Source of the DNA: Phycisphaera sp.
GTDB lineage: Bacteria; Planctomycetota; Phycisphaerae; Phycisphaerales; Zrk34
Length of the DNA: 64,000 nt
Direction of reading: 5' to 3'
NCBI GenBank assembly: GCA_016125285.1
Contig: WGMA01000020.1
Span: 62,001-126,000, forward strand
The notes under the pieces were generated by a model. It searched no databases, was not told the DNA's origin, and worked only from the letters and a program-made list of their open reading frames with translations. Every line of letters begins with the position of its first letter. Positions within the stretch are counted from its first letter, which is position 1. This document shows, piece by piece, positions 2,490 through 24,900 of this stretch. Both the position numbers and the translations under genes were made by a program.

Positions 2490-3470
2490 ATGATCCACCA
2501 GAAGTTCAGTCAGTCCGCCCAAGGGACGCAGTCCAAGGATTCAACCCTTGAACTCCCCGCGCAGCTGCGCAAGCTCAGGGCTGTCGTCTTGCTGAGTGGG
2601 ATGATCCGGCCGACGCGGCTGTACACCGCGCTCGGAACGTCGCTGCTGGATCTGCCCATCGACGGCCGACGGCGTCTGCTCAATTACTGGGGTGATCACG
2701 TCAGCGATCTGGCCGCGGCTCTCGATCGTGAGACGATTCCGGTGCGTGTGTTGATCGATCGCACCTCGAGCGAGCCCGTGACGCGCCACGACAGCTCCGT
2801 CGTTGGCTTCAGCGTGGAACGCGATCTGCAGGAGCTCCGCGGAACCGGCGGCGTGCTGCACGACATGTCCGCAGATTATCACGACGACGACTATTTGCTC
2901 GTGGCGAACGGCACGCAGGTGTTGACCGAGCCGCTGTATCGCCTGGCGTGGGAGCTGGCGGGCCTGCGCAGCGACGTGAGCCTCGTGGCGCACGACGACG
3001 GCGTGCCGAGCGGCCTGATGCTCGTCCGGTGCGGCGCGTTGCGCGACATCGCGCCGCGCGGCTTCATCGACATGAAGGAACAGGCGCTGCCGCAGATCGC
3101 TCAATCCTACAGGGTGACCGTGCTGCGTCGCGCTCGCACGACAGGGCTGCCGATCCGCTCGCTGCTGGATTACATCGACGCGCTGCTTTACTCGCACGCA
3201 CGCCTCGCCAGCGTCGACGGCGTCGTCGAACTGTCGACGCTGGAGCCGTCGCTGCAGTCGACGTTCTCCATCATCGAACCCACCGCGAAGGTGCATCCGT
3301 CGGTCCGCGTGCACAACTCGGTGATCATGGACGGCGCCACGGTGGAAGAGGGCGCCGTCGTCGTGCGATCGATCGTCTGTCCCCAATGCGTTGTCGGCCC
3401 CGGTAGCATCGTCGTCGGCGAGATCGCGACGAATCGACCAATCAAGGAAAACCAGGCCCGTTTGGCCTGA
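2490..3470 (+). CDS. Degenerate sugar nucleotidyltransferase-like protein with beta-helix tail
   Basis: A 326-residue protein that seems to combine an N-terminal nucleotidyltransferase-like fold (residues ~30-240) with a C-terminal left-handed beta-helix of hexapeptide type (TAKVHPSVRVHNSVIMDGATVEEGAVVVRS, split here only by description, residues ~272-310). The NTP-binding GGxGTRL signature of active NDP-sugar pyrophosphorylases is missing; the corresponding segment reads LLSGMIRPTRLYTALGTSLL. DDDYLLVANGTQVLTE may correspond to the metal-binding strand. I infer a catalytically changed or regulatory relative. ATG 2490 was chosen because AGGAGAAGG lies 11-15 bases upstream and the region before it is the wecG-like gene in another frame. 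It is followed within 6 bases by the co-polymerase gene. Confidence 0.7.
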   Translation: MIHQKFSQSAQGTQSKDSTLELPAQLRKLRAVVLLSGMIRPTRLYTALGTSLLDLPIDGRRRLLNYWGDHVSDLAAALDRETIPVRVLIDRTSSEPVTRHDSSVVGFSVERDLQELRGTGGVLHDMSADYHDDDYLLVANGTQVLTEPLYRLAWELAGLRSDVSLVAHDDGVPSGLMLVRCGALRDIAPRGFIDMKEQALPQIAQSYRVTVLRRARTTGLPIRSLLDYIDALLYSHARLASVDGVVELSTLEPSLQSTFSIIEPTAKVHPSVRVHNSVIMDGATVEEGAVVVRSIVCPQCVVGPGSIVVGEIATNRPIKENQARLA

Positions 3471-3476
3471 TCGTGG

Positions 3477-5942
3477 ATGATGGACCCCATACACCTGCCC
3501 AGCCCCGCCCGCCGGAGCCTCGCCGATCTGATCGAAGAGGATCGTCCCGCTGCGCCCGCCTCACCGATCGAACGCCTGATGGTCGCCCTGCGCGGGCGTT
3601 ACCTGTTGCTGGCCTTTCTCGCGACAGCGCTCGGCGTCGCGGGCGGGTTTGCGGGGTGGTCCATCAAAGCGCCGACGTACCGCAGCACCGCCAGCATCGG
3701 CTTCGAGCCGGTCATGCCGAAAGTGATGTACGCGACCGACGAGAACCGCGTCATGCCGCTGTTTGACCAGTACGTGCTCAAGCAGGTCGAGATGATCGGC
3801 AGCCCGCAGGTGCTCCGCAAGGTTGTCGAAGACCCCGAGTGGAAGACCACCGGCCTCGCCTCAGACGAAGCCGCCATCGCGATGCTCGAGCGCCAACTCG
3901 ATATCGAATCAACCTTCCGTCGCCAGAACGTCGACGTGGTCTATGTCGATCCCAACCCGAACGTCACGCGCATCATCGTGAGCCTCGTCGTCAAGCACTA
4001 CCTTGAGCTCCACCGCAACGAGGCCGAGAACAGCGTTGCCCACCGGCTCGAGACGCTGACCGAACGTGAGAGCGAACTCCAGGCCGAGCTCGACACGATC
4101 CGCGAAAAGCGCCTGGCGTTCAGCAAGGAGTACGGCACGGATAATCTGGCCCAGCTCTACAGCGACCAGCTGGCCGAGATCAATAAGCTCAAGGCCGATC
4201 TGGTCGAGTTCGACCTGGCGATCAAGCTCTACAAGTCCGCCGAGAACGCGCCGAAAGAGGGTGACGCGGCGACCGGAGTCAAGGATCAGCTGACGGTAGC
4301 CCAGATCGCGGCGCTGGACCCGGTGATGCGCAGCTACGTCCAGCAGCGTGAAGGCGTCGAGCAGGAGATCGCTCGCATGTCGATCAGCTATGGCGAAGAG
4401 CACCGCGAGCTGGTTCAGGCCAAGACCCTGCTCGCTCAGATCAACAGCAAGATCGAACAGCACGCGAAAGAGTACATGGAGCTCTACCGCAAGCAGGTGA
4501 TCGACCAGCCCAATCTGATGATGCGCGACAAGGTGGGCTGGACGAACGTCGCCAGCCTCGCGCAGCTGGAGGAGCGGTACCGCCTGAAGAGTGCGCTGCT
4601 CGAAAAGATGGAGGCGGAGCATCAGACGCTTTGGGAAAAGAAGCAGCAGATGGACGCGATCCAGCAGAACGACGCGCTCATCGAGGCACGCCTGGTCGAG
4701 ACGCAGAAGGCGCGTGACGCGCTCGAGCTGGAGTCTCAATCGAGCGTCTCGGGACGCGCATCGGTGCTGCGCGAGGCCAGCTATCCGCAGCTCGCTTCGA
4801 ACCCGCGCAGGCAGCTGGCGGTCCTCGGCGCCATCGCCGGTGTCTGCTTAGGCATCGGCATCGTCGCGATGATCGGCTTCACCGACCTGCGTCTGCGCAG
4901 CATGGTCGATGCGCAGGACGTGCTCGGCGAAATACACCAGCTCGGCATCCTGCCGCAACTGCCGGAAGACCTGGCCGACCCCGATCAGGCCGCACTCACC
5001 GCGCACTGCGTGCACCGCATCCGCACGCTGCTTCAGATCGGCACGCCCGGCAGTTCCCGCCGCGTGTTCGCCATCACGAGCCCGGGCTCGCAGGACGGCA
5101 AGACCACAATGGTCGTGGCGCTGGGCATGTCGTTTGTCGTCTCCGGGTCACGCACGCTGCTGATCGACTTCGATATCGTCGGCGGTGGGCTCAGCTCCCG
5201 CACCGACGCGCGGCGGCCCAGGCGGATCGGGCGCATCCTTCAACGCGAGCACGACCTGACCGACGGCCAGCTCGACGATGCCCTGGCGCTCGTGCACGAA
5301 CGCGGCCTGCGGATGGGTGAGGCGCTCGTCGAGCTAGGCTACGTCAGCGCCGAGGCCGTCGAAGAAGCACTGGCGATCCAGCCCGAGGACTTCGTCGGAA
5401 TCCTCGACGTAGCCGACGGCGAACCGATCCTCGAGTGCGTCAGCCCCAGCGGCGTCGAGGGCCTGTTCGTGCTGCCGATCGGCAGCGCCGAGCCCGAAGA
5501 CGTCAGCGCGATCTCGCCGGCTACCGCCCGCGCCGTGATCGATGCAGCCTGTGAAGCGTTCGACACCGTGCTTGTCGACACGGGCCCGGTCCCCGGCAGC
5601 CTCGAGGCGGCTCAGGTCGTCGGCGAAGTCGACGGCGTCCTGCTCGTGGTCACCCTCAACGAGAACCGCAAGCTGCTGGGCAAGGCCATGGAGCACCTCC
5701 AGTCGGTCGGCGCCAAGGTCATCGGATACGTGTTCAACCGGGCGGTCGGCCGCGACGTTCACGAGGTGGCCGAGTCGTCGATGTCTGGATCTGTGAATCA
5801 GACGGTGGGGCGTCGTCGCTCCGGCCGCGCACCGGTGACGCGGGTCGAGCCGCCGTCACGCCTCGGGCCGATCGCGCGCGCGGTCGCGTCGGCATCGGGC
5901 AAGCCAGTCAAGGGCGCGTCGCGCAAGCAGCACGAAACATGA
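3477..5942 (+). CDS. Wzz/BY-kinase co-polymerase with inserted GspE-N-like domain
   Basis: Polysaccharide co-polymerase with a cytoplasmic P-loop kinase-like domain, 821 residues. Order: Wzz-type region with membrane segment at ~41-62 (YLLLAFLATALGVAGGFAGW), a long periplasmic coiled coil (~180-410), second membrane segment ~445-465, then a CpsD/CapB-like ATPase with Walker A SPGSQDGKTT (535-544) and Walker A' LLIDFD (561-566). Between the A' strand and the usual following GILDVADGE stretch (641 on) lie about 55 extra residues (~583-638) with two copies of an [RI]xGxxLxxxxxxxxxxLxxAL pattern, as in the N-terminal domain of GspE/MshE ATPases. The C-terminal tail has no tyrosine cluster. It lies between the nucleotidyltransferase-like gene and the sugar transferase it overlaps by 4 bases. 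It should set chain length and gate export; kinase activity is unproven. Confidence 0.85.
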   Translation: MMDPIHLPSPARRSLADLIEEDRPAAPASPIERLMVALRGRYLLLAFLATALGVAGGFAGWSIKAPTYRSTASIGFEPVMPKVMYATDENRVMPLFDQYVLKQVEMIGSPQVLRKVVEDPEWKTTGLASDEAAIAMLERQLDIESTFRRQNVDVVYVDPNPNVTRIIVSLVVKHYLELHRNEAENSVAHRLETLTERESELQAELDTIREKRLAFSKEYGTDNLAQLYSDQLAEINKLKADLVEFDLAIKLYKSAENAPKEGDAATGVKDQLTVAQIAALDPVMRSYVQQREGVEQEIARMSISYGEEHRELVQAKTLLAQINSKIEQHAKEYMELYRKQVIDQPNLMMRDKVGWTNVASLAQLEERYRLKSALLEKMEAEHQTLWEKKQQMDAIQQNDALIEARLVETQKARDALELESQSSVSGRASVLREASYPQLASNPRRQLAVLGAIAGVCLGIGIVAMIGFTDLRLRSMVDAQDVLGEIHQLGILPQLPEDLADPDQAALTAHCVHRIRTLLQIGTPGSSRRVFAITSPGSQDGKTTMVVALGMSFVVSGSRTLLIDFDIVGGGLSSRTDARRPRRIGRILQREHDLTDGQLDDALALVHERGLRMGEALVELGYVSAEAVEEALAIQPEDFVGILDVADGEPILECVSPSGVEGLFVLPIGSAEPEDVSAISPATARAVIDAACEAFDTVLVDTGPVPGSLEAAQVVGEVDGVLLVVTLNENRKLLGKAMEHLQSVGAKVIGYVFNRAVGRDVHEVAESSMSGSVNQTVGRRRSGRAPVTRVEPPSRLGPIARAVASASGKPVKGASRKQHET

Positions 5943-7387
5943 TCACGTCAGTCGCACAGAACGTCGGTGCGGCATGCTCGGACGTGCCGATCGCCGAGCC
6001 GACCATCTGGGGGCTGACGCCGGTCCAGATGCATGACCGGTTCTGGGTGTCGCGCCGGATCCAGGTGATCCGACTCGGCGAGCCGATCCCCCTGGCGTTT
6101 CAGGCCGACTTCTTCCTGCTCACGAACCCCAAGCTCCTGACGCTGTTTTCCTACCCGCAGCTCATGCGTCACCTCCGCTGGCGCATGCCGGACGTGCTGG
6201 TGCTGAGGCTCCGCGCCGAGCTCGAGCACGAGTACCGCGAACTGGTGCGATCGGACGCCGACGGGAATTTCCTGCGTGTCGAACGCGTGTACAACGCCGC
6301 GGATTCGCGGTTTGGTCGCGTCGCGGTGACGCCCCGTCGCGACCTGGCCGAGGTCTGGCAGGCGATCGACGATCCCGCCGAAGCCTGGCGCATGCTCCGC
6401 GCGTCCGTGCCGAAACGCAACCGCCGCGCCGCGTCCCTCGTCGGGCGTATCTACACGACCGACCTGCCGAAGGAACGCATGCAGCTCATGCACGACCTGA
6501 TCTCGCGCTGGCGTTACCCGCACGCCAGCGTCACGCGCGCCAACTCCGCCAGGAAGGGCGTGTGGACGGACACCAACGCCACACTGCACGAAGACGCACG
6601 CTTCATCGGGCCCGCCTGGATCGGCGCCGGACGCGAGGTCGGCGCCGACGTCGATGTCGTCGGCCCGGTGGTGATGTGGGACAAACCCGACGCGCGACCG
6701 AACGTCGAAGACCCGATCTGGCCCACGGCGGTCAAACGCGTCAACGAACGCATCAAGATTCCGGTCGTTCCGCGATCGAACTGGTACCGCGTGAGCAAAC
6801 GCGCCTTCGACATCGCGTTTGCCGTCGTGATGCTCGCGCTCACGCTGCCCTTCTATCCGCTGGTCATGCTCGCGATCTGGATCAACGACGGCAGGCCGTT
6901 CTTCTTCGGACACGAGCGCGAGTCGCTGAACGGACGCCCCTTCGAGTGCATCAAGTTCCGATCGATGCACAACAACGTTAAGCGGCGCAAAGAAGAGCTC
7001 GTCGCGCACGACACCGTCGACGGGCCGCACATCTACATCCTGCCGGACAACGACCCGCGTGTCACCGCGGTCGGGCAGTTCCTGCGCGAGTTCTACATCG
7101 ACGAACTGCCGCAGTTCATCAACGTGTTGCGCGGCGACATGTCCGTGGTCGGGCCCCGGCCCAGCCCGCGGATCGAGAATCAGGGCTGCCCGCCCTGGCG
7201 CGAGGCCCGGCTGAGCGTGCGGCCGGGCATTACCGGCCTCTGGCAGGTGATGCGCACACGCGAGGAGGACCTCGACTTCCAGGAGTGGATCCGCTACGAC
7301 ATCGAGTACGTCGAGCGCGCTTCGTGGAAGCTCGACCTGTTCATCCTCTGGCGCACCGTCCTTGTGTTCCTCCACCTCACGAAGTAG
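5939..7387 (+). CDS. Polyprenyl glycosylphosphotransferase with beta-helix N-terminal region
   Basis: Initiating sugar-phosphate transferase that loads a hexose-1-phosphate onto undecaprenyl phosphate. Residues ~285-482 form the bacterial sugar transferase domain: RVSKRAFDIAFAVVML leading into one membrane hairpin, FECIKFRSMH, the TAVGQFLREFYIDELPQ segment, FINVLRGDMSVVGPRPS, and RPGITGLWQV. The N-terminal ~280 residues are not the usual four-helix membrane domain. They end in short hexapeptide-like turns (ATLHEDARFIGPAWIGAG) and recall the nucleotidyltransferase/beta-helix protein encoded two genes upstream. ATG overlaps the preceding TGA (ATGA), so the two are translationally coupled. Membrane-bound with a large cytoplasmic N-terminal part; sugar specificity unknown. 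Confidence 0.9.
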   Translation: MITSVAQNVGAACSDVPIAEPTIWGLTPVQMHDRFWVSRRIQVIRLGEPIPLAFQADFFLLTNPKLLTLFSYPQLMRHLRWRMPDVLVLRLRAELEHEYRELVRSDADGNFLRVERVYNAADSRFGRVAVTPRRDLAEVWQAIDDPAEAWRMLRASVPKRNRRAASLVGRIYTTDLPKERMQLMHDLISRWRYPHASVTRANSARKGVWTDTNATLHEDARFIGPAWIGAGREVGADVDVVGPVVMWDKPDARPNVEDPIWPTAVKRVNERIKIPVVPRSNWYRVSKRAFDIAFAVVMLALTLPFYPLVMLAIWINDGRPFFFGHERESLNGRPFECIKFRSMHNNVKRRKEELVAHDTVDGPHIYILPDNDPRVTAVGQFLREFYIDELPQFINVLRGDMSVVGPRPSPRIENQGCPPWREARLSVRPGITGLWQVMRTREEDLDFQEWIRYDIEYVERASWKLDLFILWRTVLVFLHLTK

Positions 7388-10726: not shown

Positions 10727-13700
10727 TTACGGTCCGATGCCGATGATGCTGACGGCGCTGAGCACGGGGTTCTTGTCGCCGCCGGACTTGCGGAACTCGA
10801 TGGACAGCCCGGCGTCCTTGACGGTGATCGGCTCGTAGACTTCCCAGTAGGGTTTGAACGCGGCGCCCTTGGTCCCCTTGAGAATCTCGAAGTTCTTCTC
10901 GTAGACCTTGCCCTCGATCTTGACCTCCATCTGACGCTTGCCGAACTCCGTGTCCGCGTTGGGCTCGGCGTAGAAGAGGATGACCTTGTAGTTGCCCTTG
11001 GGGACCATGGCGCGGAACGCCTTGATGTTGTTCCAGTAGGTGCCGATCAGTGGATCGCCCTTCATGCCCGCGATCGTCTCGGCCTTGCCGCCGTTGTTGG
11101 ATTCGTAGCCGGCGACGGTCTTGTCCTTGACCCACTTGGGCGCGGCCTTCCACGTCTTGCCGCGCGGGTCGTTGAAGTCGTCCCCGCCGACATTGAAGTA
11201 GTATTCGACGTCCTTCGGGTCCGCGGCGACCGTGAGGTTGTCGTTGGCCTTGGCGGCCCCGTTGGGCTTGTCCGGCGTGACGACCGCCGGCGCGGACTCG
11301 GCCGAGAGCTTCGCCTTGTCAGACGTCGACGTGGCGAGGATCCGGAAGCAGCCGAGGTTCAGCCGGTTCGAGATCGTGAACGTGAGCGTCGAGCCGTTGG
11401 GCCCGCCGACCGGTTCGGTCGTCATGACGATCGCGACGCGCGCCTCGCGGGGCTTGTTGATCACGGCCCACGCCGTGCCGGTTGAGCCGTCGATCATCTT
11501 GTCGGCCGTGTTGCGCTCGTCGGAGTAGTCCGCCGAGGCGCCGGTGAGGTTCACGCGCACCGTCTTGTTCGGCGCGCCCTTCGGCGCGGCCTCGACGGCG
11601 AACTCCGCGACCGCGAAGTTGCCGCGCGCCAGGCCCGGGCCGCCCTCCGGCAGGCTGTCGTCGGGCAACGCCTCGAGCCGGAATCCCGTGATGCCGGCGA
11701 TGTCGGTGTCCGCGGTGACGGTGTACACGTCGCCGCCCGCGTCGCCCTCGACGAGCACCGTGCCGTCCGACTTGATCGCGACCTTTGCGCCGTCCTTCGA
11801 CGTGACCTTCGACGGGACCAGCGCGATGAAGCCGACGTCGCTCAGCGGACGCTGCTTCGTCGGTTCGTCCTTGAGGGCGTGCGGCGTCTTCGACGTCGTG
11901 GCGCTGAGGCGGAACCGGCCCAGCACGTGTCGCGCGTGCGGTGTCTTCTGAGCGATCGTGATGGTCAGCAACACCGGGTCGTCGGGCGTCGCGTCGCGCC
12001 AGTTCGGCGCCTTGAACACGAGGTGGTGTGACTGGCCGGTCTTGCCGTAGATGCCCCAGCCCGTCTTCGTCGCGTCGCCGTCGATCGCCGCCTCCGCCTT
12101 GTAGTCTCCCTGCTCGAAGTCGGCCTTGGCGTCCGAGAGCTTCGCGGCCTTCAGGTCCGACGGGCGGTTGGACGTCGCGGACTCCACCTGGATGTCGGTG
12201 ATGATGAAGTTGCCGTTGCCGTCCGAAAGGCCCGGTCCGCCCTTGGGCAGTGAGGCGTGCGTCATCGCGTCGAGGCGATACGCCTGGATCTTGCTGAGTG
12301 TGGTGACGGCCTTGAGCGTGTAGATGTCGTTCGCGGGCGTCGCGCCGCTGACCATGATCGAGCCGTCGTCGGCCTTGGTGAACGACAACCCGGATTCCGA
12401 CGTCGCCTCGACGATATCGAGGACGTTCCAGCCGCCCTCGTCGGCGAGCTGCGCGTTCGGCGGGTACAGCGGCGGCAGCCTGGTCGTCTTGGCCGTGCTG
12501 GCGACGGTCGGCGCGGGTTCCGGCTTGGCCGCGGCGGGCTGACCGCTCTTGAACGAGAAGTCGAAGATGCGGTGCTTCGAGTTCTCGCCGCCGGTCGCCG
12601 CGGTGAACCCGATGAACGCCGCGCCGTCCTTGTCGAGCCGGCTGCGTGTCTTGATCTTCGTGAGATCGGCCTTGACCACCTTGCTGAGGCTCTTCGACGC
12701 GTCGTTGGGATCGGTCACGTCGATGTGCAGCTCGTGCGCCTTGGCGTCGTAGGCGATGGTGGTGGGGTAGACGCGGCCGTCGGCCATGTTGAACTGTGGC
12801 TTGGTGGTGCCGTCGACGTTGTAGTTCTGCCGCGCGTTGAGGCTGCCGTTCTGGACGCAGTGCACCGTGATGCCATCCTCGTCGCCACCTTCGTTCTTGT
12901 AGGTGTCGAACTCGATGGCGAGCCCCTCGCGGATGGCGGCCTTCTGCTCGGGCGCGTCGCTGCGGTTCGGGTCGTCCGCGTAGCCCAGGCCGCCACCGGT
13001 CGACCCGAGCGACTCGGGCCCGTCGGGCGTGAGGACGAACGCGAACCCGTCGGCCGCGATGCCGCTGTTCTCGATCTTGAACCGGAAGTTGACGGTGAAG
13101 CCGTCCTTCAGCAGTGCGCGTCCCTTGTAGAACGCCGAGCCGCGTTTCTCGTTCTCCGCCGGCGTGAGCGTCAGCGACCCGTCGCCCTCGATGCGCGCGT
13201 CACCGTTGAGCTGCGTCGTGTCGGGCGAGAACTTGTTCTGATCGATCCTGAAGTCTCGCACGATCGGATACGACTCCGGCGGCTTCGACGGCGTCGTGGT
13301 CGTGGGGCTGTTGTTCGTCGGCGTGCCGGTCGACGCCTGCTTGATGTACTTCGACGGGTCGTTGAGCGAGAGCCATTTCCACTCGCCCTGGCCGAACTCG
13401 CAGACAACCGTCGGCAGCGACCAGCTCGACGCGTCGTAGCCCGCGGACTCCCACCCGCTGAACTTCGTCCGCGTGGCGTTCCACGAGTCGTCGGTGATGA
13501 ACACCTGCTCGCGGTCGTTGCCGTAGCCGACCACGAGCTTGCCGACGACGCCCGCGTTGCCGCTGTTGTTCTTCGCCTCGATGCCGATCACGTTGTCGCC
13601 GCGCTTGAGGAATGCGGTAACGTCGGCCATGACGGGTGTCTGCCAACCCTTTTGCTCGCCGACCTTCCGTCCGTTGACGTAGATGCTGCACTCGTCGTCG

Positions 13701-15427
13701 GCCGAGACCGCAAACTGAGCCAGGTGCGGCGTCGACTCGAGGTCGATACGCGTGCGGAAGTACGCCGTCTGATTGTCGGCGCGCGGCTCGACCCATATCC
13801 ACTTCGGGCGCGGCTCGTTGACGAGGATGGGCCACGCCGGCTCGGTGGGCAGGTCGGCGAACGCGGGCTTCGGCGCGGGTGTCGGCGTCGGCTTGGACGG
13901 CGTGTTGTTGGCCGGCTTGTTCGGCGCGGGCTTCGACGGGGTGGGCTTGGGCTGCGGCGTTGGCTTGTCGGGCTGGGTGTTCTTCGTGACGTTCGCCGGC
14001 CCGGCGGGCTCCTCGGTGCGCGTCAGCTTGTAGTAGCCGATCGCCATCGCGACGAGAAAGATCACGACCGCGGTGAGGATCAGCGGCAGCTGTGACTCGC
14101 GCGCCTTGGCGACGGGGATGTGACCGGTGCCCATCTTCGGCAGCGACTTCGACGAAGTCGACGCCGCGGCCGCCGCGATGGCCGCGGTGCCAGCGGCGTT
14201 GTCGATGCGCGCCGTCTTGCCGCTGGAGCGTGGCGGGGCGGGCGGACGATCGGGGCGCGAGCGCGCCGCGGGCGTCGCGCCCGGCGAGTCGGGCCGAGCG
14301 GGGCGGTCAGGCCGTTCGGGACGCTGCGGACGCGACGGCGTGCGCGCGGGGCTCGGCTCCATCGCCGCGCCACCGCCACCGCCCGCCGCGGCCGCCAGCG
14401 CGCCAAGCGCTCCGGCGTCGTCGGCCGGCTCTTCGTAGACGGGTTCCTCGTAGACGGCGTCGCCACCGCCACCGCCTCCGCCCCTGCCGCCGTCCACCTC
14501 GTACGAATCCAGCTTCGCTCGCGCGTCCTTGAGGTCGGCGATCAGCTCGTCGTAGGTCTTGTAGCGGTTGTTGACCGGGTCCGGCTCGAGCATCCGCGCC
14601 ACCACCTCGCTGGTGCGCGGGTGGATGTCCGGCTTGATGTCGATCAGCGGCGGCGGCAGCTCGCGCAGCCGCTTCTTGATCACCGCAATCGCGTTTTCCG
14701 CCGTGAACGGGGGCCGACGAGACAGCAGGTGAAACAGCGACGCGCCGAGGCTGTAGATGTCGGCCTGATGCGTCGTCGCCTCGCCCTTGACCACTTCCGG
14801 CGCGACGTAGTAGGGCGTGCCGACGATCTGGTCGCTCTGCTTCTTGCCCGCCTGCGCGACGCCGAAGTCGATCAGCTTCGCGCTCTTCTGCCGGTCGAAC
14901 AGCATGTTGGCCGGCTTGACGTCCATGTGCACCAGCCCACGCTGATGCGCCGCCTTGAGTCCCTCGGCCACGTCGATCGCCAGGTCGAGGATCTTCGCCT
15001 CGTCGATCGGCTGCTTGAACAGGTCCTGCACGCTGCCGCCGTCCAGCAGTTCCATGACGATGTAGTGCTGGTCGCGGTACTCGCCGATCGTGTGCACCTG
15101 CACGACGTGCGGGTGGTTCAGCGACGCCAGCGCCCGCGCCTCGCGGGTGCACGCCTTGACCAGTTCGGCGTTGTCGTCGCCGCGCTTGAGGATCTTGATC
15201 GCGACCTGCCGGTGCAGCTTCTGGTCCAGCGCCTTGCAGACGATGCCCGCGGCGCCCTGGCCCATCGCGCTGATGAGCAGGTAGTCCCCGAACAACGCCG
15301 GCACCGTGACCTTGTTCCCGCACTTGGGGCATTTCAACGACGACAGCGGCTTGACCTTCGCCGGGTCAAGCGCGTGGCCACACTTGCCACAATTCAATTG
15401 GTCGACGCGTTCTGCGAGCAGGTCCAT
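10727..15427 (-). CDS. Transmembrane Ser/Thr kinase with lectin and malectin ectodomains
   Basis: A 1566-residue single-pass receptor kinase. Order: zinc ribbon (CGKCG and CPKCG, Cys 13/16/33/36); Hanks-type kinase (~48-310) with GQGAAG, VAIK (Lys78), HMDVKPAN (Asp169) and DFG (Asp187); Gly/Pro/Arg-rich linker; one membrane helix (~444-465); Pro-Lys-Thr spacer; a rhamnosidase-N-like beta-sandwich (~544-690); an L-type-lectin-like domain (~719-960); two galactose-binding-like repeats with GFRLEALPDDSLPEGGPG as in planctomycetal PSD1/PSCyt cytochromes (~975-1400); and a C-terminal malectin-like domain (YYFNVGG, ~1415-1566). The kinase should be cytoplasmic and the sugar-binding domains outside. 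ATG 15427 is preferred: an extended -10 lies at 15486-15494, leaving GTG 15484 at or before the transcript start, and an AGGA precedes the ATG. Ligand unknown; a cell-wall or exopolysaccharide sensor is inferred. Confidence 0.85.
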   Translation of the reverse strand: MDLLAERVDQLNCGKCGHALDPAKVKPLSSLKCPKCGNKVTVPALFGDYLLISAMGQGAAGIVCKALDQKLHRQVAIKILKRGDDNAELVKACTREARALASLNHPHVVQVHTIGEYRDQHYIVMELLDGGSVQDLFKQPIDEAKILDLAIDVAEGLKAAHQRGLVHMDVKPANMLFDRQKSAKLIDFGVAQAGKKQSDQIVGTPYYVAPEVVKGEATTHQADIYSLGASLFHLLSRRPPFTAENAIAVIKKRLRELPPPLIDIKPDIHPRTSEVVARMLEPDPVNNRYKTYDELIADLKDARAKLDSYEVDGGRGGGGGGGDAVYEEPVYEEPADDAGALGALAAAAGGGGGAAMEPSPARTPSRPQRPERPDRPARPDSPGATPAARSRPDRPPAPPRSSGKTARIDNAAGTAAIAAAAASTSSKSLPKMGTGHIPVAKARESQLPLILTAVVIFLVAMAIGYYKLTRTEEPAGPANVTKNTQPDKPTPQPKPTPSKPAPNKPANNTPSKPTPTPAPKPAFADLPTEPAWPILVNEPRPKWIWVEPRADNQTAYFRTRIDLESTPHLAQFAVSADDECSIYVNGRKVGEQKGWQTPVMADVTAFLKRGDNVIGIEAKNNSGNAGVVGKLVVGYGNDREQVFITDDSWNATRTKFSGWESAGYDASSWSLPTVVCEFGQGEWKWLSLNDPSKYIKQASTGTPTNNSPTTTTPSKPPESYPIVRDFRIDQNKFSPDTTQLNGDARIEGDGSLTLTPAENEKRGSAFYKGRALLKDGFTVNFRFKIENSGIAADGFAFVLTPDGPESLGSTGGGLGYADDPNRSDAPEQKAAIREGLAIEFDTYKNEGGDEDGITVHCVQNGSLNARQNYNVDGTTKPQFNMADGRVYPTTIAYDAKAHELHIDVTDPNDASKSLSKVVKADLTKIKTRSRLDKDGAAFIGFTAATGGENSKHRIFDFSFKSGQPAAAKPEPAPTVASTAKTTRLPPLYPPNAQLADEGGWNVLDIVEATSESGLSFTKADDGSIMVSGATPANDIYTLKAVTTLSKIQAYRLDAMTHASLPKGGPGLSDGNGNFIITDIQVESATSNRPSDLKAAKLSDAKADFEQGDYKAEAAIDGDATKTGWGIYGKTGQSHHLVFKAPNWRDATPDDPVLLTITIAQKTPHARHVLGRFRLSATTSKTPHALKDEPTKQRPLSDVGFIALVPSKVTSKDGAKVAIKSDGTVLVEGDAGGDVYTVTADTDIAGITGFRLEALPDDSLPEGGPGLARGNFAVAEFAVEAAPKGAPNKTVRVNLTGASADYSDERNTADKMIDGSTGTAWAVINKPREARVAIVMTTEPVGGPNGSTLTFTISNRLNLGCFRILATSTSDKAKLSAESAPAVVTPDKPNGAAKANDNLTVAADPKDVEYYFNVGGDDFNDPRGKTWKAAPKWVKDKTVAGYESNNGGKAETIAGMKGDPLIGTYWNNIKAFRAMVPKGNYKVILFYAEPNADTEFGKRQMEVKIEGKVYEKNFEILKGTKGAAFKPYWEVYEPITVKDAGLSIEFRKSGGDKNPVLSAVSIIGIGP

Positions 15428-15485
15428 CGGGCAACAATCCTGACATGTGTCCACCCCGGGACAGGTGTGGCGGACATGAGCCACT

Positions 15486-21999: not shown

Positions 22000-24900
22000 T
22001 CACTTGTCGCCCAGGCACAGCACGCGGCCGTCGGTCGTGCTCAGGTACACGCGGCCGTTGGCGATCGACAGGCCGTCCCACAGCGGCGGGGCGACCGTCT
22101 GGCTCGCGACGACCTTGCCGTCGGCGGTCGAGCGGATCTGCACGTGGCCGTCGGACAGGGCGACGTACACGCGGTCGCCCGCCCAGACCATCGCCTGCAC
22201 GGCCGCGCCTTTCGCGACATCCTTCGCGGCGGCGTCGGCGATCGGCGCCTTCCACGTCGCGTCCTTCGCGAGGCGCGCGCTGGGCCACGCCTCGCCGTCG
22301 GCCTTGTTGCTTTCGCCCGAGCCCGTCCAGCCGGTGATCCACTTCGGGACGAACTTCTTGAGGCTCGCGTCGTCGAAGTCGCGCCGGTACAGCGACCGGC
22401 GGTCTTCGGTGCAGCCGATCACCGAGCTCGCCTTGAACGCGACCAGCGCGCGCATCGGGTCGAACGTTTTGGTGCGCTGCTGATTGCGCGGGGCGTACGT
22501 CCAGCAGCCGCGCGGCGCCCACACCTGCCCGTCGCCGGTGTCGAACTTCGCGAACACGTTCCACGGCTGCACGCTCATCTCGCCGTTGCCGCGGTCGAAC
22601 GACCACCGCGACATCGACACGCCGTCGCCTTCCTTGAACAGCAGGTCGAAGTTGTCGAACTCGAGGCCCGAGCTGTTGTAGAAGCCCTTCTGCGGCACCG
22701 AGTTCAACCGCTGCGACCACTTCAGCTCGCCGCTGCGCGGGTCGACCGCGAACACGAAGATGCCGCCGTCGGCCAAAGGCTGTCGGCCCGACGCGTAGTA
22801 CGCCGTATCGTCGATCACCAGCACGCTGCCCGGCACCGGCCACGGCGACTCGACCTGCCCGTACGCCACGATCCGCTCGTCGAGCGGCGCGGCGCTGCGA
22901 CGCCACACCATCGCGCCGTTGTCGGCGCGCAGGCAGTACACCCAGCCCGCCTTCGAGCCGAACAGGCACAGCCCGTTGTGCAGCGTCGGTGCGGTGTCGA
23001 CGCGGCCGTCGGCGCGGAAACGCCAGCGCACCTTGCCCGTCGCCGCGTCCATCGCCACCACCTCGTGCGCGTCCGGCCGGGCCACGACCGCCAGGCCGTT
23101 CGACACGACCGCCGGCGTCACCGGGCCCTTCGCGAACGGGTCCTCCGCCCAGTCCAGCGCCAGCGGTTCGGACACGACGCTCTGCCCGAGTGCCACGCTC
23201 CACAGCGTGTCGAGCTTCGCGGGGCCCGCCGCCGCGGTCGCACCGCTGCGGTTGGCGTCGCCGCGGTAGATCGGCCAGTCGGTGTCCGCCGGCTTCGCTT
23301 CGCTCGCCTCGGGCGCCTTGGCGTCGCCGCGCTCGATTGCAAAGTCGATCTCGCCGATCGGCTTCGTCGCGGGGTTGCCGTTGGGGCGCTCTGCGGCGAG
23401 CGCGGCGTATCCGCGCAGCATCGGCCAGCACACGCAGTGCTTCGGCGCGACGTACAGCAGGCCGTTCGCCGGGATCCAGCCCGCGTCACGCCCGCACGCC
23501 GCCTTGGTGATCTGGTTCGCGTCGGTCTGCCCGTTGGCGATGTCGGTCAGGTTCATCTCGCCGGAGAGGATGAACCGCGGCGTGGCGACGGGCGGGAAGC
23601 AGTGCGCGAGTCCGGCGGGGTAGGTCTGCGAGGTGACGCCGGTGTGGAAGTTGATCGCCGAGACCTGCGTCGGCTCGCTCGTCTTGCCCTCGCCTCGCCC
23701 GCCGTGCAGCACCCACATGTCCTCGCCGACGAACATCGCGCGGGCCTGTCGCATGTGGCTCTGCGCGGGCAGGTACGGGTGGTCGAGCACGGGCTCGCCG
23801 GTCAGCGCCGACAGCAGGTGCAGCGCGTTGCCCGGGCCGTCGTTGTTCAGCGTCGACACCTCGTACGCGATCACGTCGTGGTAGGCGACGCATCGGTTGA
23901 CGCCCGCGATCCACTCGTCGCCGTCGCGCTTCCACAGCGGCTTGCCGGTCTCGGCGTCGAGCGCGACGGCCGCGGGCTTCTGACCGCGCCGCGGGTCGCC
24001 GGTGATCAGCCCGACGCGCCCGGCGTGGTACACCAGGTTCCGCGGCGCGATCGCCTCGTAACGCCACTTGCGCTGACCGCTCGCCACGTCGAACGCCGAC
24101 ACCGCGTCATCGCCGACCGCGATCATCACGCCCGCCTCGGCCACGACCTGCTTCGGCTTGCCCGCCTCCTTGAACGCGTGCGCCACCTCGCCGGTCGCGC
24201 CGTCCATCGCACGCAGCTCGCCCTCGTCGTACACGAACAGCAGCCCGCCGTCCGCGACGGGCGGCACGCTGTCGGCCGTGACGCGGTACCCGAACCCGCC
24301 GCGCGCCGGCGTCGGCGTCAGCCCCTTCTGCCACAGCCGCAGCCCGTTGAACGCGTCACGCACCAGCACGCCGCCGTAGTAGTTGCGGCCGGCCTCGCTG
24401 ATCATGCTGCTGACTTCCTGCCAAGGCCCGGCCACCCAGCGGATGCGCCGCGGCGGGCCCACGATCGTGTCGTTCGACACCGTGTTGCCGTTGGCGCCGT
24501 GGCCCGGGTGCGACCACGTGTCCATCTCCTTCGGCCAGGGCTTGCGACCGCTGATCCACTTGCCGCCCGACGCGTCGCTCGCCTGCTTGATGTCCGTCAG
24601 CCCCATCGCCGTGAGCCGCGCCGCGTCGACCTCGCCCGCGTCGGCCAGCACCAGGCCGTTGGGGCACAGCACGCGGCTCGCCTCGTCCCAATCGATCCGA
24701 CCGGCCTGCCCGCCGCGGATGATCAGCACGTTGACCAGCCGCTCGGTGTAAGGCAGATGCTTGACGTCGTCGCGCCGCTCGATCGAGATCGTGCCGTACA
24801 GTTTCGCCGCACGCTGCTGCGCCGCGTCGACCGCCTTCGCGTCGGTGTCCAGCACGTGGACGAGGTACCGACCGTCCGCCGCCAGCGCCGACGCCAGACC

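Follow-up and report, generated by a model that had tools for sequence, protein, structure and literature searches.

An MshEN_N-type domain, a candidate c-di-GMP receptor, inserted into the ATPase of a Wzc-like polysaccharide co-polymerase of Phycisphaerae

Introduction

How does a polysaccharide co-polymerase that lacks a tyrosine-rich tail cycle between its assembled and free states, and could a ligand-binding domain within its ATPase take over that control? It is phosphorylation of its tail that makes the Wzc ring assemble and disassemble (PMC11986026), and the authors of a study of EcpK posed the first of these questions for PCP-2 systems without a tyrosine tail (PMC12004946). Both questions are raised by a gene at nucleotides 3477 to 5942 of the window, by which we mean the whole stretch of 64,000 nucleotides of planctomycete DNA that was analyzed; the initial annotation of this gene proposed that an MshEN-like domain lies inside a BY-kinase ATPase. 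Our explanation, to which we assign a probability of roughly 0.6, is that the gene encodes a PCP-2a co-polymerase with an inserted MshEN_N receptor, through which c-di-GMP would switch ATP turnover or ring assembly. Synthase-type systems (BcsA and NfrB) are known to be controlled by c-di-GMP directly. If our explanation holds, a Wzx/Wzy co-polymerase would be under the direct control of a second messenger instead of a tyrosine-phosphorylation ratchet. Features of the window are on the forward (+) strand except where stated.

Results

The open reading frame at positions 3477 to 5942 is uninterrupted and encodes a protein of 821 amino acids, as originally described. Matches were obtained to the NCBIfam families TIGR01007, TIGR01005, TIGR03007, TIGR03017 (EpsF), and TIGR03029 (EpsG), and CapAB and Wzc were the top matches when a predicted structure of the kinase domain was compared with the PDB using Foldseek. 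The protein has the layout of a PCP-2a, with a transmembrane segment, a long periplasmic domain, a second transmembrane segment, and a cytoplasmic P-loop domain, a topology held in common with Wzc and CapAB. The two transmembrane segments (3600 to 3662, about residues 42 to 62; and 4815 to 4880, about residues 447 to 468) were assigned by eye as hydrophobic stretches in the translation. The periplasmic chain-length-determinant region between them (3663 to 4814, about residues 63 to 446) was assigned from the match to TIGR03007, which aligns to residues 100 to 496, and the ATPase is C-terminal. The 821-residue protein is thus a PCP-2a (Wzc-like) polysaccharide co-polymerase.

The gene is located in an exopolysaccharide/capsule cluster with WecG, Bac_transf, RmlC/RmlD, and epimerase neighbors. 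Upstream lie a WecG/TagA/CpsF glycosyltransferase gene (1612 to 2448; PF03808) and an LbH-like gene (2502 to 3470, start approximate), the product of which has a C-terminal end resembling a left-handed beta-helix; this assignment comes from a weak, sub-cut-off match to PF25084, and the position of the gene is conserved in relatives. Immediately downstream, and with a start (5939) that overlaps the co-polymerase stop, is a bacterial sugar transferase gene (5939 to 7387; PF02397), by family a priming glycosyltransferase, which is syntenic in relatives. The same order of WecG, LbH-like gene, co-polymerase gene, and bacterial sugar transferase gene was found both where the co-polymerase carries the inserted segment described below and where it does not, indicating that these co-polymerase genes are orthologues.

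The P-loop, the DxD of Walker A', and the Asp of Walker B are all kept in the co-polymerase. Walker A (PGSQDGKTT; 5082 to 5108, residues 536 to 544) provides the GK(S/T) signature as G541-K542-T543, with GK invariant in the alignment, and Walker B is TVLVDTGP (5565 to 5588, residues 697 to 704). Walker A' (TLLIDFD; 5154 to 5174, residues 560 to 566) reads DFDIV, so that DxD is present and the Arg of DxDxR is absent. The tyrosine cluster expected at the C terminus was not found, the last 66 residues (5742 to 5939, residues 756 to 821) containing no Tyr in translation. The clan as a whole, carriers and non-carriers of the insert alike, is without a Tyr-rich tail and is also without the Arg of DxDxR, the first Pro of DTPP, and the Glu and first Arg of EX2RX2R. 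These kinase motifs are kept in the canonical relatives (L095 to L126), several of which also keep the Tyr tail. The missing Tyr cluster and the missing parts of the kinase motifs make tyrosine autokinase activity doubtful, and in this respect the BY-kinase label was too strong, while the insertion of the domain into a Wzc-like cytoplasmic ATPase stood. Judging from the tree, the loss of the kinase marks probably predates the gain of the insert.

The intact P-loop GK(S/T) and Walker A' DxD, together with the matches to the tyrosine-autokinase families TIGR01007 and TIGR03029, could also be taken to mean that the co-polymerase is a working tyrosine autokinase whose autophosphorylation is tuned by c-di-GMP. 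Against this stand the tyrosine-free tail here, the lack of a Tyr-rich tail across the clan, and the loss of motif residues that the canonical relatives retain, and we regard such an enzyme as improbable. The match to TIGR03029 amounted to 63.9 bits in three stretches, below the equivalog cut-off of 313.8 bits. In place of the Tyr-rich tail, most clan members have a brief conserved sequence, R(F/L)GP(L/I/V)A.AVA, which in the window protein reads RLGPIARAVAS (residues 790 to 800); this motif is possibly a new docking segment.

Between the Walker A' strand and the next conserved block, which begins with VGILDVADGE at residue 643, lies a segment (5205 to 5399, about residues 577 to 641) that is predicted to be helical and is missing in the orthologues L071 to L126; the position claimed for the insertion was therefore correct. 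Two copies of an MshEN pattern had been proposed at residues ~583 to 638, and these were recovered by the NCBIfam model NF053729 ("c-di-GMP_motif, MshE-related"). All 53 positions of NF053729 aligned to residues 583 to 635 (nucleotides 5223 to 5381), with 41.2 bits (E = 1.1e-10) against the whole co-polymerase and 47.3 bits (E = 1.3e-12) against the insert piece alone, the curated cut-off being 38 bits. The first copy runs from R583-IG to V606 and the second from R612-MG to Q635 with a spacer of 5 residues, which is exactly the 24-5-24 double-motif layout defined for MshEN (PMC5013675). Motif I of the window copy (RIGRILQREHDLTDGQLDDALALV; 5223 to 5294, residues 583 to 606) is imperfect: R, I, G, L17, and L21 are kept, and H, D, and V occupy positions 10, 11, and 24, which typically hold G, a hydrophobic residue, and Q. 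Motif II (RMGEALVELGYVSAEAVEEALAIQ; 5310 to 5381, residues 612 to 635) is perfect, with 6 of 6 ligand positions kept. Among 25 insert sequences, 24 matched NF053729, the best with an E-value of 1.7e-18.

The profile check that the initial annotation suggested, with the Pfam MshEN model PF05157, gave no match in the co-polymerase at E-values up to 1. Elsewhere in the same genome, PF05157 matches begin one base past the NF053729 matches (C34:23731-23889, followed by 23890-24159), indicating that PF05157 models the neighboring, C-terminal alpha/beta half of MshEN. That half is missing from the co-polymerase, and since PF05157 covers it and not the half found here, the absence of a PF05157 match is no evidence against the identity of the insert.

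Structure prediction with AlphaFold2 agreed with the assignment. The kinase part with its insert, modeled from a 59-row alignment, gave a mean pLDDT of 90.6 and a pTM of 0.88, and within this model the insert formed four helices (residues 584 to 592, 596 to 609, 613 to 619, and 625 to 637) at a pLDDT of about 95 to 98. Modeled alone, the insert again formed four helices with a mean pLDDT of 77, which was low only at the cut ends, with blocks at about 84 to 93 over residues 11 to 60 of the piece. In a Foldseek search of the PDB with the insert alone, the leading 13 matches were all MshE/PilF GSPII domains, mostly c-di-GMP-bound, and the best was MshE with c-di-GMP (5htl_B; rmsd of 1.2 over 51 columns, 33% identity, probability of 1.00). 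The fold predicted for the insert thus matches MshEN, as had been anticipated.

Might a helical insert rich in leucine and alanine resemble MshEN by chance? The short query leaves the Foldseek E-values modest (best, 0.056); moreover, the C-terminal domain of FumC gives a weak sequence match to the co-polymerase in addition to structural matches. VIA-align gave a Z of 7.9 for 5htl_B and of up to 6.3 for fumarase C-terminal bundles, so that a fold match without the sequence motif would not decide the matter. The fumarase rows nevertheless rank below the MshEN rows in the structure comparison, and a profile E-value of 1e-12 at the exact 24-5-24 spacing, with 24 of 25 homologues matching, leaves chance with a negligible probability. 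Chance resemblance was ruled out on these profile statistics, and the MshEN-type identity of the inserted domain is near certain.

The insert was present in close orthologues, as the proposed survey required, and had a restricted distribution. At the level of the order, 20 homologues carry the segment, while in nine others (L029, L030, and L032 to L038) Walker A' leads directly to the next block. For the 59 relatives that come from named genomes, the insert region comprises about 140 residues in 24 and 82 to 86 in the rest; the window protein has 140 compared to 82 to 86 in its insert-less orthologues. All carriers are Planctomycetota, labeled mostly as Phycisphaerae, Phycisphaerales, or Phycisphaeraceae. 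Of 400 genomes sampled from the order, 39 carry the insert, at 41 places, and all of these belong to two families (f1 and f6); a phylum-wide sample of 392 genomes yielded 9 carriers confined to the same two families. On a tree of the co-polymerases built without the insert columns, the insert state needs two changes, one gain and one loss, a number as low as which was reached in none of 500 shuffles. Of the 14 rows in one supported clade (100/99), 8 have the insert, with a decayed ligand motif, and 6 have lost it. The insert was gained once, in an ancestor within Phycisphaerae.

Conservation of the putative ligand site was scored in 39 distinct inserts at six positions per motif (R/K, L, G, L, L, and Q); because the insert rows are related by descent, the counts that follow are descriptive. 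Both motif glycines are kept in 21 inserts, in which matches are found at 88% of ligand positions and at 91% of those in the hydrophobic core, compared to 36% and 87%, respectively, in the remaining 18. Since this split used the glycines themselves, the comparison was redone by tree clade. In the decayed clade, none of the 8 inserts has the glycines or the first-position residues, compared to 15/17 and 13 to 14/17 elsewhere, and the core hydrophobics score 0.875 compared to 0.904 elsewhere. The loss of ligand residues by a whole clade that kept the fold indicates that retention of the insert can serve another purpose. The window copy keeps 11 of 12 ligand positions, the exception being the motif I Gln (Val), while decayed members score 2 to 7; its motif I turn, with H-D in place of G-L, is the least typical.

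The motif I Gln, equivalent to Gln32 of MshE, is replaced by A, S, or V in 19 of the 21 glycine-keeping inserts, whereas all 21 have the motif II Gln, so that the two half-sites are unequal throughout the family. In MshE, the motif I Gln contacts ribose/phosphate, and its replacement in nearly all members may reduce affinity for the ligand. A single Gln-to-Glu change in PilF cost about 77- to 158-fold, with a Kd that was still submicromolar, and the four-helix half of MshE alone binds c-di-GMP at about 350 nM (PMC11731258); the missing C-terminal half therefore does not exclude binding by the insert. On the residues retained, most carriers likely bind c-di-GMP, and the window copy may do so as well, though with somewhat less certainty.

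That the window insert is instead a folded relic without useful affinity for c-di-GMP, serving as a structural or protein-docking element, is unlikely but is the alternative to be taken most seriously. It would be in keeping with the 18 of 39 inserts that lost ligand residues and kept core hydrophobics, with the imperfect motif I, with the precedent of XpsE/GspE as a known non-binding domain (PMC5013675), and with the presence of only three GGDEF domains in the window genome. On the other hand, the window copy keeps both RxG triplets, the four leucine-type ligand positions, and the motif II Gln, scores well above the decayed members, and exceeds the NF053729 cut-off curated for binding domains.

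A bundle of this shape might also bind another ligand, such as 3',3'-cGAMP, or a partner protein. MshE binds cGAMP weakly (PMC5013675), and the missing motif I Gln makes the half-sites unequal. The backbone contacts that choose guanine, however, depend on the RxG turn (PMC5013675), which is kept in both halves, and c-di-GMP cyclases were present in every genome checked; we therefore hold this alternative, too, to be improbable. GGDEF domains were found in 30 of 30 genomes, the window genome having the fewest. Loss of c-di-GMP metabolism was considered as a cause of motif decay and was rejected, as genomes with decayed motifs have 5 to 17 GGDEF domains and those with intact motifs have 3 to 12.

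The LbH-like and co-polymerase genes are separated in most relatives by an exosortase gene and EpsI (L047 to L085; e.g., L047:2754-4369), indicating that the ancestral locus was of the exosortase EPS type. Both are absent from the window locus (between 3470 and 3477), and in the decayed-motif clade they are mostly absent, displaced, or diverged. The c-di-GMP site may have decayed in connection with the loss of the exosortase; the exceptions are L066, which has a decayed motif with an exosortase, and the window, which has a mostly intact motif without one. Two exosortase-like genes that score below the curated cut-off occur elsewhere in the window genome (C74:83319-84020 and C81:102472-103170), within large ORFs of 559 and 596 amino acids. 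No PEP-CTERM signals over the cut-off were found in this genome.

Discussion

Under the explanation that we favor, the co-polymerase would regulate the polymerization and export of a Wzx/Wzy-type exopolysaccharide, and a complete MshEN_N four-helix module was inserted once, directly behind the Walker A' strand, which extends to the Mg-ATP site. c-di-GMP would bind between the two half-motifs, as the ligand residues retained in most carriers suggest. Because the insert starts about 10 residues past the Walker A' Asp pair, closing of the bundle on a ligand could be transmitted to the Mg-ATP site or to the subunit interface, and clamping and release would presumably shift this region and so switch ATP turnover or ring assembly. 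High c-di-GMP might then lead to more polymer, a direction suggested by analogy with NfrB, MshE, and BcsA. Since the clan has lost the Tyr tail that drives the Wzc ring cycle, the ligand may supply control in place of tail phosphorylation.

NfrB of Escherichia coli, a proven c-di-GMP-activated polysaccharide synthase with an MshEN domain (PMC8669469), is a precedent for such a use, and by analogy with it, control of polymer output by c-di-GMP appears to be the best-supported role for the insert. The NfrB domain is 41% identical to the insert of one relative (L048). NfrB likewise joins MshEN to an exopolysaccharide machine, but its domain is fused C-terminally to a synthase-type glycosyltransferase and not to a Wzx/Wzy co-polymerase. 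The MshEN_N domain of MshE from Vibrio cholerae (5htl) has the four-helix fold and the 24-5-24 motif in common with the insert, in which the ligand residues are largely kept and the motif I Gln is replaced. In MshE, however, the domain stands at the N terminus of a pilus ATPase and is followed by the alpha/beta MshEN_C, whereas here the N half alone lies inside another ATPase fold. Compared with Wzc and CapAB, the co-polymerase has the insert after Walker A' and is without the Tyr tail, the Walker A' Arg, and EX2RX2R.

EpsG, the kinase of exosortase-type EPS loci, matches the co-polymerase in its kinase part, and the loci of the relatives likewise have exosortase and EpsI. Positions 4 to 58 of the EpsG model (TIGR03029) match the insert and are N-terminal to the kinase part of the model, so that in EpsG, as deduced from these coordinates, the motif precedes the kinase, while in the co-polymerase it is internal; it thus appears that kinases of this class have acquired a c-di-GMP-type motif in two topologies. 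The co-polymerase joins EpsF-like (TIGR03017) and EpsG-like parts in one protein. Searches of the open-access literature turned up no description of an MshEN domain inside a PCP-2 protein or BY-kinase and none of direct c-di-GMP control of a PCP-2, and plasmid records searched with an insert returned T2SS/T4P ATPases, NfrB, glycosyltransferases, and others, with no annotated BY-kinase. The view that the arrangement is new to Wzc proteins accordingly holds for what that literature describes, with the qualification that the EpsG model already pairs the motif, N-terminally, with a kinase.

EcpK/EpsV and other BY-pseudokinase PCP-2 proteins also apparently function without tyrosine phosphorylation, but EcpK has neither Walker motifs nor a ligand domain, whereas the co-polymerase has an intact P-loop and an added sensor domain (PMC12004946). 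The insert family would offer a concrete answer to how rings might cycle without a tyrosine tail, namely, a ligand switch inside the ATPase. We put forward tentatively, at somewhat less than even odds, the fuller proposal that this PCP-2a works independently of phosphorylation and that c-di-GMP drives its ring cycle by way of an MshEN domain in the ATPase core, acquired a single time in Phycisphaerae and, in one lineage, subsequently degraded and lost. As we picture its history, the insert was gained once and has been kept up in most lineages; in one clade the binding site decayed inside a preserved fold, and deletion followed. Intact, decayed, and deleted inserts at one operon position constitute a natural comparison set.

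Two further observations concern the window genome. The window genome encodes a second, distant PCP homologue (C46:5716-7362), with a PF02563 polysaccharide-export match just upstream (C46:4710-7362 overall) and no NF053729 match in the homologue itself. Adjoining the EPS locus on the reverse strand (10727 to 15484, -) is an ORF of 1585 amino acids in which, by eye, an N-terminal Ser/Thr protein kinase is followed by long extracellular lectin/malectin-like repeats.
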